Of a DNA stretch of 64,000 nucleotides, positions 662-14,691 are shown in pieces; within the stretch, counting starts at the first letter, position 1, and each line of letters opens with the position of its first letter. The DNA comes from Spartobacteria bacterium. GTDB taxonomy: Bacteria; Verrucomicrobiota; Verrucomicrobiia; Chthoniobacterales; UBA10450. A program made the position numbers and the translations under genes. The stretch spans positions 37,780-101,779 of the forward strand of contig PLCM01000037.1 of assembly GCA_003134765.1 (NCBI GenBank), in the 5' to 3' direction. The notes below the pieces were generated by a model. The model made no database searches. It was not told the DNA's origin and was given only the letters and a program-made list of their open reading frames with translations.

Positions 662-1000
662 ATGTCCGCCCCGCAATCTCAGAAGATGGCCCCTCGGCGG
701 TGGAAAGTGATCCTGTTTTCGACGGTTCATGTGGTGGCGGCTGCGGCGGTTTACAAATATCTCGTCAGCGGTGGCTGGCTAACGAACCAATACCACCTTA
801 ACGATCCCAACATCGTTAACCTCGGGCTGGCCATCTTTGAGCCGATCGCGATTCTCAGCGTAATTGCCTACTGGGTTGGGCGAAAACTTTCTCTTTATCG
901 GCTGATGTGGATTCTCTGCCTCGTCCAGGTCCTCATTGCGATTGGTTTTCTCCTCTTCTTTCTGCTCTTCGCGCTCACCTGGCATCCGAAAATGATGTAG
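662..1000 (+). CDS. Hypothetical membrane protein
   Basis: ORF MSAPQSQKMAPRRWKVILFSTVHVV...LLFALTWHPKMM with several hydrophobic segments. Confidence 0.6.
   Translation: MSAPQSQKMAPRRWKVILFSTVHVVAAAAVYKYLVSGGWLTNQYHLNDPNIVNLGLAIFEPIAILSVIAYWVGRKLSLYRLMWILCLVQVLIAIGFLLFFLLFALTWHPKMM
974..998. repeat. 25-bp direct repeat, copy 1 (CTCACCTGGCATCCGAAAATGATGT)
   Basis: Perfect match to 3377..3401; flanks the TPR gene. Confidence 0.95.
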
Positions 1001-1063
1001 GTGCCGTACGCGGCGTATCTCACCCTGTCGAACTCGACGGCCGTTGCCGACGAAGAGCCGCCG

Positions 1064-3142
1064 TCATTTTTTGTTTTCCAAATCTGCCAGGAGTTTTTCG
1101 TATTTGTGAGTGGAGGGATGATCAGGTCCCAGGACCTTGCGCGCACCTTCGGTTGCTCGCAGGGCCAACTCCTTCGCTTCCTGGAGCTTGTTCTGGCTCT
1201 TTAATCCAGAGGCAAAATAGTAGTAGGAATCCAGCGTTTGGGGATGCTGAGGTTCAAGTGCCTTTTCCTGGAGCCTGATTACCTCGCGAAAAGCTGCTTC
1301 GGCCTCGGCATACTTGCCTTGCCCGTAGAGCGCTCTCGCCAGGGTGGCGCGGCCCAAAAGCGTATCCGGATGCTCGGGTCCCACCACGCTTTCCAGAATC
1401 TTGATCAGCGCGCGGCTTTCCGCTTCTGCCTCGGCATACTTGCCTTGGTCATTAAGGGCAACGGCCAGGTTGTTACGGCTCCAAAGCGTGTCGGGATGCT
1501 CGGATCCCATTACTCTTTCTTCAATCTTGATCAACTCGCGGTCTTGGGCTTCCGCCTCGCTGTATTTGCCTTGATCATCAAGAACACCTGCCAGGTTATT
1601 GCGGGTAAAAAGCGTATCGGGATGCTCCGGTCCCAGCACCTTCTCTCTCACCTTGATGATCTCGCGATATTGCGCTTCCGCCTCGGCAAATCTGCCTTGA
1701 TCATTAAGCTCAGCGGCCAGGTTGTTTCGGCTCCTCAGCGTGTCGAGATGCTCGGGCCCCAGCACCTTCTCTCTCAGCTTGATCAGCTCTCGGTCTTCCT
1801 TTTCCGCTTCGGCAAACTTGTCCTGGTCACGCAGCAAATTGGCCAGGACGCTTCGAGCTGAAAGTGTATCCGGATACTCTGGCCCCAGGACTTTCTCTTC
1901 CAGCTTGATCAGCGCACGAGAATCCGCGTCCGCCTCCACGTATTTGTATTCTTTCCAAAGAGCGCCGTCCAGGCGGCCCCGGCTCTTGAGCGTGTCGGGA
2001 TGCTCAGGCCCCAGGACGCGAGTCCGAACACTAACAACAGTTCGCAATATGTTCTCCGCGTCATTGTAATGTCCCTGGTCAATTAACAGATCGGCAATTG
2101 CGTATTGCACTTCCGCCCAATCTTCCGGAGTCCTATCGCGATCGGTTAGCTTCTCAGCTTCGCGGAAGTGTGCCAGGGCTTCGGCATACTGGATCCGCTT
2201 CTGGGCCGATTGGCCGGCTAACTCATAGCCCTGGATTGCCTGCTTGCGCCGATCCTCTTGCACGCGCTGGGCAGCCTCATACCCTTGCCGGTCTTTCGTC
2301 GCGCCTTCCAGGCTGAGTCGCTCAGCTTCCTCAAAGTGGCCGAGGGCGTAAGCGGCCCGCGCGCGCATGAGAGGGGTGGTATCGCTGCGATTGTAAAGCT
2401 CCAGCGCGAACCCAGGAAGTTCTTTCGCCAGCGAACCTGCTGGAAGGCCAAGCTCCCTTTCCAGGAGACCGTAGGCATTAGCTCGTTGTTCCTCTGGTGA
2501 CGCTTTCGAACCCGGCGCCTTGGACTGGGCTTCAACATCAGCCAGGCGCACGAGGGCTTGTTGCATCTTCTCATAGCGATCGATAATCGTGCCAACTTGC
2601 TCGCCCTGCTTCTGGATCACGCCAGTTTGCCGGCGCTGCGCCTGAACCAGCCAGACCGTGGTCGTTGCCACCAAAAGGAGAAGCGCAATCACGGCGAACG
2701 CCCATCGTTTGACTCCGCGGCGCAGGTGCGTGAGGTCGTCGCGGAGCTTGAGAACTCCTGCCTCCAGCGCCTCGCTGCTTCTGAGCGGATGGAACACGTG
2801 CGTCTCAGATTGCAAACGACGACGATAAGCAGCTTGCAACTCACGCATTTCGTCAGGCTCGACTTCGCAATCGTCGCCAGGAAAGCGCTCATCGATGAAC
2901 AAGTACCAGACTTTTTTCCCGCGCTTTCGGGCGTAAAGGGCTTCGTATTGCGTGTAGCTTGTTCGACCGAACTCCTCATCCGTGGTGGGCGGCTCGGCGC
3001 CATAACATTGTCCCACGAGTTGGACGACTCCTTTGCACTGATCGATCTGCTGGCTAAGCAAAACCCGGAGATCGCCCGTTTCGGTACTAAAAACGTCTTG
3101 CCACACCGGCTGATAGCCGAGAAAAGTCAACGTATTCGCCAC
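1064..3142 (-). CDS. DUF4062-like N-terminal domain + TM + tandem kinesin-light-chain-type TPR repeats
   Basis: N-term TLTFLGYQPVWQDVF...CKGVVQLVGQCYGAEPP, one TM (WAFAVIALLLLVATTTVWLV), ~42-aa repeats VLGPEHPDTL..RNNLA..L.DQGKYAEAEA. In-frame sequence upstream of the GTG (FISAVSRELKSARQLV) suggests the true start is further upstream. Confidence 0.85.
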   Translation of the reverse strand: MANTLTFLGYQPVWQDVFSTETGDLRVLLSQQIDQCKGVVQLVGQCYGAEPPTTDEEFGRTSYTQYEALYARKRGKKVWYLFIDERFPGDDCEVEPDEMRELQAAYRRRLQSETHVFHPLRSSEALEAGVLKLRDDLTHLRRGVKRWAFAVIALLLLVATTTVWLVQAQRRQTGVIQKQGEQVGTIIDRYEKMQQALVRLADVEAQSKAPGSKASPEEQRANAYGLLERELGLPAGSLAKELPGFALELYNRSDTTPLMRARAAYALGHFEEAERLSLEGATKDRQGYEAAQRVQEDRRKQAIQGYELAGQSAQKRIQYAEALAHFREAEKLTDRDRTPEDWAEVQYAIADLLIDQGHYNDAENILRTVVSVRTRVLGPEHPDTLKSRGRLDGALWKEYKYVEADADSRALIKLEEKVLGPEYPDTLSARSVLANLLRDQDKFAEAEKEDRELIKLREKVLGPEHLDTLRSRNNLAAELNDQGRFAEAEAQYREIIKVREKVLGPEHPDTLFTRNNLAGVLDDQGKYSEAEAQDRELIKIEERVMGSEHPDTLWSRNNLAVALNDQGKYAEAEAESRALIKILESVVGPEHPDTLLGRATLARALYGQGKYAEAEAAFREVIRLQEKALEPQHPQTLDSYYYFASGLKSQNKLQEAKELALRATEGARKVLGPDHPSTHKYEKLLADLENKK

Positions 3143-3376
3143 GAGTTGCCGCGCGCTTTTCAGCTCACGACTGACTGCGGAAATGAAGATTAGCGGGCGT
3201 GGCGTCAGGGCAGGAGGGACGTATCAGATTGCGCTCGCTTATCAAGCTGGGTCGGGCAACCCGCGGGCGCTCTGCGTCAAATCTTCAATCCTCGCTCTCT
3301 GCCACCACCGGCGATCCTCGCTCCTCCGTCTCCACCCGCGATTCTCGCTCCTCAATTCTCAATCCTCGCCTCTCAA

Positions 3377-3401
3377 CTCACCTGGCATCCGAAAATGATG
3401 T
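3377..3401. repeat. 25-bp direct repeat, copy 2 (CTCACCTGGCATCCGAAAATGATGT)
   Basis: Perfect match to 974..998. Confidence 0.95.
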
Positions 3402-3504: not shown

Positions 3505-3768
3505 ATGAATCCTGCATACTCGGATATTCCAGTCCGCATTCGCCGCCTTGAACGGCAAAATCGAATCCTGCTCATGATGCTTTGCTCCCTGCTTGGCATC
3601 GCCTTGATCGCGGCCACAAAACAGTCCGGAGCCTTCATCAACGCCACCGAGATTCGGACACAACGCTTTACGCTCGTCGATGATCAGGGCAAGCCGCTCG
3701 TTGACACTCGAGCTGTGAAGGGCGTCGAGATCCGCGCCTACTTGCCGCACAATGTAGTCCAGCAATGA
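3505..3768 (+). CDS. Hypothetical protein with one TM segment
   Basis: ORF MNPAYSDIPVRIRRLERQNRILLMMLCSLLGIALIAATKQ... Confidence 0.5.
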   Translation: MNPAYSDIPVRIRRLERQNRILLMMLCSLLGIALIAATKQSGAFINATEIRTQRFTLVDDQGKPLVDTRAVKGVEIRAYLPHNVVQQ

Positions 3769-3876: not shown

Positions 3877-4536
3877 ATGGAAACGCTGAGCCATCTTTTC
3901 GACAACAACCGGGCGTGGTCGGAGGGAATCCGGCAGGTAAAGCCGGAGTTTTTCCTGGAACTCTCGCGACAGCAGTCGCCGAAATATCTCTGGATCGGTT
4001 GCTCCGACAGCCGGGTGCCGGCAAACCAGATCGTCGGACTCGCGCCAGGCGAATTGTTCGTTCACCGCAATATCGCGAATCTCGTCGTCCACACCGACCT
4101 GAATTGTCTGTCGGTGATGCAATTCGCCGTCGATATTCTGAAGGTGCGCCACATCATTGTGTGCGGGCATTACGGTTGCAGTGGGGTGGGAGCGGCGCTG
4201 CGGCGCGATCGCCTGGGGCTGAGTGATAACTGGCTTCGCCATGTCCAGGATGTCCGGCAGAAGCACGAGAAAACGCTGGCAGTTTTTCCCGAAACGGAGG
4301 CTGTGGACCGGCTTTGTGAATTGAACGTCGTAGAACAGGTGACCAACGTCTGTTCCACGACAATTGCCTTGGATGCCTGGGAACGTGGGCAGGAGTTGTC
4401 GATCCATGGCTGGATTTACGGGCTCCACGGCGGGTTGTTGCGGGACCTTAATATGACGGTCGGCCATTCGGAACAAACGACCGCAGCTTACGCAAAGGCG
4501 ATTGAGAGTCTGTCGCCGGGCAACGCCGGGAAGTGA
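3877..4536 (+). CDS. can: Beta-class carbonic anhydrase
   Basis: METLSHLFDNNRAWS...LWIGCSDSRVPANQIVGLAPGELFVHRNIANLV...VCGHYGCSGVGAAL. Confidence 0.95.
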   Translation: METLSHLFDNNRAWSEGIRQVKPEFFLELSRQQSPKYLWIGCSDSRVPANQIVGLAPGELFVHRNIANLVVHTDLNCLSVMQFAVDILKVRHIIVCGHYGCSGVGAALRRDRLGLSDNWLRHVQDVRQKHEKTLAVFPETEAVDRLCELNVVEQVTNVCSTTIALDAWERGQELSIHGWIYGLHGGLLRDLNMTVGHSEQTTAAYAKAIESLSPGNAGK

Positions 4537-13122: not shown

Positions 13123-13175
13123 TTGACAGTCTAGGGAAAAGATTGAACAGTTGACTTACCAAGACTGTCTAGGTA
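13123..13175 (+). promoter_or_regulatory. Putative promoter/operator TTGACAGTCTAGGGAAAAGATTGAAC...AGACTGTCTAGG
   Basis: 51-bp sequence ~84% identical to 14641..14691; contains AGAC-T-GTCT palindrome; sits just upstream of an ATG. Confidence 0.75.
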
Positions 13176-14640: not shown

Positions 14641-14691
14641 TTGACAGTCTAGGGAAAAGATTGAACGCTGACGTGACCGAGACTGTCTAGG
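14641..14691 (+). promoter_or_regulatory. Putative promoter/operator, second copy of the 13123 motif
   Basis: Same 51-bp layout; first 26 nt identical to 13123..13148. Confidence 0.75.

Follow-up and report, generated by a model that had tools for sequence, protein, structure and literature searches.

A probably mobile single-gene unit bounded by 25-bp direct repeats at the 3' end of a membrane-protein gene in Spartobacteria

Most accounts of horizontal transfer seek a mobility gene, whereas at the locus described here one gene moved alone with a 25-bp repeat. Several described systems come close to this arrangement. The E. coli H47 island (microcin H47) is mobile and flanked by repeats without encoding a recombinase, and 16 site-specific recombinases as well as RecA were all found to be dispensable (PMC5426353). 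CIMEs have attL-/attR-like ends and no integration or transfer genes (PMC5704250), and the cassettes of integrons and CALINs are moved as single-gene units (PMC11389934). Recent work identified DUF4062, the domain carried by the gene at our locus, as a TIR-like NADase, found in bacteria in the antiphage system Swarozyc (PMC13174449).

The locus was examined within a 64-kb window, by which we mean the whole stretch of DNA analyzed, and within the 4.05-Mb genome of the soil bacterium to which it belongs (G000). A preliminary description of this DNA had claimed perfect 25-bp direct repeats, and these were confirmed as exact at 974-998 and 3377-3401, with the second copy of CTCACCTGGCATCCGAAAATGATGT lying 2403 bp downstream of the first. 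Exactly two copies were counted in the window and in the genome, and a search allowing up to 3 mismatches found no others in either; the number of extra copies expected by chance in the window was 0 (100 shuffles). The DNA flanking the two copies is unrelated on both sides (32% and 25% identity over 60 bp), so the repeat is exactly 25 bp and not longer. Within the genus, the 25-mer was found only at the 3' ends of a small membrane-protein gene, which we call MP, and the pattern was not found on viral contigs. A dispersed or common genomic repeat, which would have undone the earlier description, is excluded by this confinement and by the two copies being the only ones in the genome. As background, 22 isolated repeat pairs of similar size were observed in 1.28 Mb of these genomes, most of them dispersed palindromic intergenic repeats, whereas the 25-mer is limited to the 3' end of one gene. 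Three further pairs in the window (13123/14641, 25239/27340 and 41800/46963) were rejected as promoter-like or dispersed repeats. The first of them, a perfect 26-bp repeat at 13123-13148 and 14641-14666 (TTGACAGTCTAGGGAAAAGATTGAAC), looks like a promoter/operator element, and a close variant of it was observed downstream of an MP in G002.

The left repeat (974-998, plus strand, attL-like) is the 3' end of MP (689-1000, plus strand; 104 aa counted from 689), which had correctly been described as a membrane-protein gene with ..LTWHPKMM* as its last codons and for which no Pfam family was matched. The right repeat (3377-3401, plus strand) is attR-like. Between them we found one gene only, together with its leader, as had been described. 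This cargo gene (1064-3208, minus strand) encodes a DUF4062 domain, a transmembrane segment and a TPR array, with a length of 714 aa from a CTG start. The DUF4062 domain (residues 7-93) was recognized by a PF13271 match (7e-11) in addition to the TPRs. The start appears to be the CTG at 3206-3208, conserved in both known copies, while paralogues have ATG, GTG or TTG there; the first in-frame GTG is at 3142, and starting there would leave the DUF4062 domain without its first strand. The leader (3209-3376, minus strand) consists of about 170 bp of non-coding DNA rich in ATCCTCGCTCCTC-like repeats, and holds a degenerate form of an upstream motif found before the paralogues. The cassette contains this single DUF4062-TPR gene and no recombinase or transfer gene, as in CIMEs and other integrase-less integrated islets. 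To its right are a small gene of 87 aa (3505-3768, plus strand) and a beta-carbonic-anhydrase-like gene (3877-4536, plus strand), the latter named from sequence motifs and not from a search.

Homologues of MP (n = 12) were observed in all 8 genus genomes examined and in one other genome of the family (G019); the relatives compared are draft genomes, and MAGs wherever titles are known. In G006, MP is uninterrupted and its 25-mer is identical to the window copy, with a carbonic-anhydrase-like gene 62 bp after MP and a dynamin-like gene further on, which is the gene order to the right of the cassette in the window. MP was also uninterrupted in G004 and others, and the unoccupied site thus exists in relatives, contrary to the case in which all close relatives would carry the insert. 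The earlier prediction about the form of this site was borne out in part: the flanks, when joined, do encode a frame ending ..KMMWSLK*, but this end is found in none of the relatives, and all full-length uninterrupted copies end in ..MM*. The cassette was absent from MP in G006 and in the other genus members except G007, so that two occupied sites are known, one in the window genome and one in G007. A 3'-truncated MP was observed in G003:C2, followed by an unrelated 435-aa gene with no Pfam match (L046:8546-9853) and then by a homologue of the small gene at 3505-3768; the 435-aa gene is another insert in the position that the cassette occupies here. In G002:C49 (L047:7733-13186), two MP copies lie 5.2 kb apart around PadR, ADOP-type permease and cytochrome-like genes, a block that sits upstream of MP in G003.

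The second occupied site was found in another species, the Spartobacteria palsa_1379 MAG (G007), where contig PMSN01000025.1 carries MP, the same cassette at its 3' end and both repeats. An assembly artefact is unlikely, since this independent MAG holds the same arrangement with diverged sequence. Similarity between the two loci ends exactly at 3401, where the right repeat finishes; past this point G007 has unrelated DNA. Nucleotide identity was 74.6% for MP, 90.4% for the cargo gene and 85% for the leader. The left repeat has the same position in G007, and the two G007 repeats each differ from the window 25-mer by 1 mismatch and match each other at 23/25 positions. Position 3 of the G007 right repeat is C, as in the window cassette, whereas G007's own MP copy has T, which indicates that the right repeat arrived as part of the cassette.

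Synonymous divergence between the window genome and G007 was compared across genes. The cargo gene had a dS of 0.34, even along its length, while MP had a dS of 0.83 and three vertically inherited pairs of DUF4062 paralogues had values of 1.18, 1.40 and 1.72. As a baseline we used 35 reciprocal best pairs, approximately 20 of them credible (amino acid identity >=0.65, in frame); these replaced the carbonic anhydrase and dynamin-like gene, which as sole baseline overstate genome divergence. Among the credible orthologue pairs the cargo dS was the lowest, with the others ranging from 0.50 to 1.98. By Fisher test on synonymous changes, the cargo gene was less diverged than the DUF4062 paralogues (p <1e-25), than the lowest baseline genes (p ~1e-3) and than MP (p ~1e-4), the contrast with MP being moderate when taken alone because the MP value also falls below the genome median. 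G006 is nearer to the window genome than G007 is (dynamin-like gene dS 0.95 versus 1.95). From the low cargo dS, and from the lack of the cassette in the nearer G006, it follows that the cassette moved after the lineages split and that MP did not. The reading of the unit as a mobile single-gene cassette, put forward in the preliminary description, gains support from this low divergence and from the presence of the cassette at the MP 3' end in a second species. The dN/dS of the cargo gene between the two copies was ~0.12, indicating that the protein is under selection. As judged from these sequences, single genes here seem able to pass between species without a moving enzyme of their own.

We consider the 2.4-kb unit to be, with good probability, a horizontally mobile islet of a single gene, integrase-less and CIME-like, that uses its 25-bp att-like repeat to integrate at the 3' end of MP. 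Direct repeats flank the unit, one of them completing the target gene (25/25, MP stop intact), and likewise in G007. In the proposed mechanism the unit, which carries one DUF4062-TM-TPR gene together with that gene's leader and terminates in a 25-bp duplicate of the MP 3' end, would form a circle by recombination between the two copies, with a junction that would read ..AACTCACCTGGCATCCGAAAATGATGTAGGTGC.. The single 25-mer on the circle would recombine with its counterpart in the MP of a recipient, and integration would keep MP intact and create the direct repeat. Circularization through the repeats followed by integration at the next MP 3' end would account for all of the boundaries. Tyrosine recombinases are encoded in every genus genome (2 to 14), making action in trans possible, while none was found on the MP-bearing contigs of the genus. 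No large serine recombinase (PF07508) was found in G007. For mobility of a repeat-flanked unit that encodes no recombinase, the E. coli H47 island (PMC5426353) offers a precedent. If the islet reading is right, the chances are about even that a tyrosine recombinase in trans performs the exchange, which would otherwise be a RecA-dependent or RecA-independent event at the short repeat. The att-type insertion without integrase or transposase that had first been suggested thus fits our findings, with the recombination mechanism being the part that we infer.

Comparable arrangements were observed at tRNA-Arg(acg), whose 3' end is single in five genus genomes and repeated in three (G002, G007 and G005). 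In G002:C84 (L066:1210-3498), a second copy of the 3' end (29/30 nt) follows 2.2 kb downstream, and the only gene enclosed is a pectinesterase-like one on the minus strand; this insert has no integrase, has the same architecture as the MP cassette and adjoins a DUF4062 gene. A 17-kb island in G007 (G007:C6:166255-183732, L212) is bounded by the tRNA gene and by a repeat of that gene's 3' end, and contains universal stress proteins and PEP synthase-like and alcohol dehydrogenase-like genes. The corresponding stretch in G005 (G005:C15:226982-256465; L213, L214) spans 29 kb up to the second 3'-end copy and holds the sheath, eCIS_core and AAA ATPase of an extracellular contractile injection system. 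No tyrosine recombinase hits were observed on the contigs of these three islands. A tentative generalization, which we put forward as a minority possibility, is that a trans recombination system in the genus moves integrase-less elements flanked by copies of target 3' ends, including the MP cassettes and the 2.2-, 17- and 29-kb tRNA-Arg islands. It is also possible that the three tRNA-Arg islands are degenerate islands.

Other inserts and integrases were observed in these genomes. A DUF4062-TPR paralogue directly adjoins an integron integrase (TIGR02249, 471 bits) in G007:C18 (L063:5543-9117), and a related integrase is found in G000:C24 among repeats ending CGTTAGATG. In G007:C12:235606-240356, just downstream of a DUF2252-like gene, 31-bp direct repeats lie 4.7 kb apart around one minus-strand gene encoding a beta-helix-like protein of 1403 aa. 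Elsewhere on this contig (371844-375100), a 571-aa gene has a complete tRNA-guanine transglycosylase gene on one side and, on the other, a duplicate of the N-terminal part of that gene.

Campbell-type RecA recombination may have been the only process involved, with a circle or fragment carrying the cassette and an MP 3' end from a related genome, and the 25-mer as leftover homology; we regard this as doubtful, though it deserves the most weight among the alternatives. A 25-bp repeat suffices for inefficient homologous recombination. In addition, inserts occur in G007 between longer partial gene duplications, such as the tRNA-guanine transglycosylase fragment, and G002 carries its two separated copies of MP. 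Against this, 25 bp is close to the minimum homology, yet the cassette occurs at MP in two lineages with exact and identical boundaries, and islands of 17-29 kb are found at tRNA-Arg with repeats of 29-30 bp. Less probable still is decay, in which an integrase-bearing island at MP shrank to one gene, spread before it decayed and is now immobile. CIMEs originate in this way (PMC5704250), and ordinary integrases beside tRNA genes are present in the genus, but both species have the unit in one and the same minimal 2.4-kb form, with identical ends, and it moved recently in that form, and no integrase-bearing relative at the MP site was found in the genus. With the tRNA-Arg parallels in view, losing one integrase at a single site also explains the observations less completely.

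It is quite improbable that the cassette is one old insertion retained in two lineages by vertical inheritance, or a chance local duplication of the MP tail. Both copies do sit at orthologous MP genes, and flank rearrangement could account for their differing surroundings; the cargo dS is nevertheless far under that of the orthologous DUF4062 paralogues and under that of MP, and the nearer relative G006 and the other genus members have MP without the cassette. Finally, a few IS families do produce duplications of about 25 bp, but DDE-type transposition with such a long target-site duplication is extremely improbable given that the unit has no transposase and no terminal inverted repeats (best 20-mer match 12/20), that the identical target base was used in two species, and that the right repeat agrees at position 3 with the cassette and not with the local target.

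What the cargo protein does was approached through its domain. A profile built from 24 homologues aligned with the solved structure of the KpSwz DUF4062 domain (10wc) over 3-126, a weak match (E 0.098). The catalytic Glu of KpSwz (E97, assumed to be chain position 82, with the construct beginning at residue 15 or 16) aligned with Gln87 of the cargo protein, invariant in 24/24 homologues, with an invariant Glu89 two residues past it. The cargo shares the DUF4062 domain with Swarozyc members but has no Glu at the aligned catalytic position, and this Gln makes its enzymatic activity uncertain. Strands and helices alternate in an AlphaFold2 model (pLDDT 79, pTM 0.70), which closes with a single long helix. 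PADLOC (2023) had no model matching the cargo, and this DUF4062 clade was not found on viral contigs. On sequence grounds the cargo is a member of a defense-linked domain family, and NADase activity and phage defense are not claimed for it.

A gene of a family linked to antiphage defense has entered the same gene, MP, in two species. Should a recombinase act in trans, islets of this kind would be a hidden route for the spread of accessory genes, one overlooked by searches that rely on integrases, and a clone of the 2.4-kb unit would provide a very small system in which to test integrase-less mobility. A trans system in the genus would mean that single accessory genes shuttle between species without a mobility gene.

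The locus resembles each of the described systems in part. As with Swarozyc and the DUF4062 NADases (PMC13174449), it combines an N-terminal DUF4062 (PF13271) with a patchy distribution and horizontal spread. Swarozyc differs in having a portal-binding auxiliary domain where the cargo has TM and TPR segments; in the cargo Gln87 lies at the position aligned with the catalytic Glu97, and no neighboring defense genes were recognized at the cassette. Integron cassettes and CALINs (PMC11389934) likewise involve one gene moved as a unit, and integron integrases are present in the genus, but this route would leave no 25-bp repeat, and we rejected it as the cassette junctions have no GTTRRRY/RYYYAAC pair (attC R'/R'' boxes). 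GTTRRRY-like strings before several genes were also rejected as attC, since such strings precede many start codons and resemble promoter motifs. The attL-/attR-like ends and the lack of integration and transfer genes are shared with CIMEs (PMC5704250), which derive from ICEs/IMEs and move with a neighbor by accretion, whereas our cassette has no known parent and moved alone; with no tyrosine recombinase on the MP contigs of the genus, it falls outside CIMEs in the strict sense of ICE/IME origin and movement by a neighboring element. The H47 island (PMC5426353) is larger at 13 kb, holds several genes between extensive imperfect repeats and was shown by PCR to excise, while the cassette has 2.4 kb, one gene and a perfect 25-bp repeat at the 3' end of a protein gene, with its mobility inferred from comparative genomics. 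What the two have in common is a small, apparently mobile island with direct repeats and no recombinase of its own, for which the host would supply the recombination.
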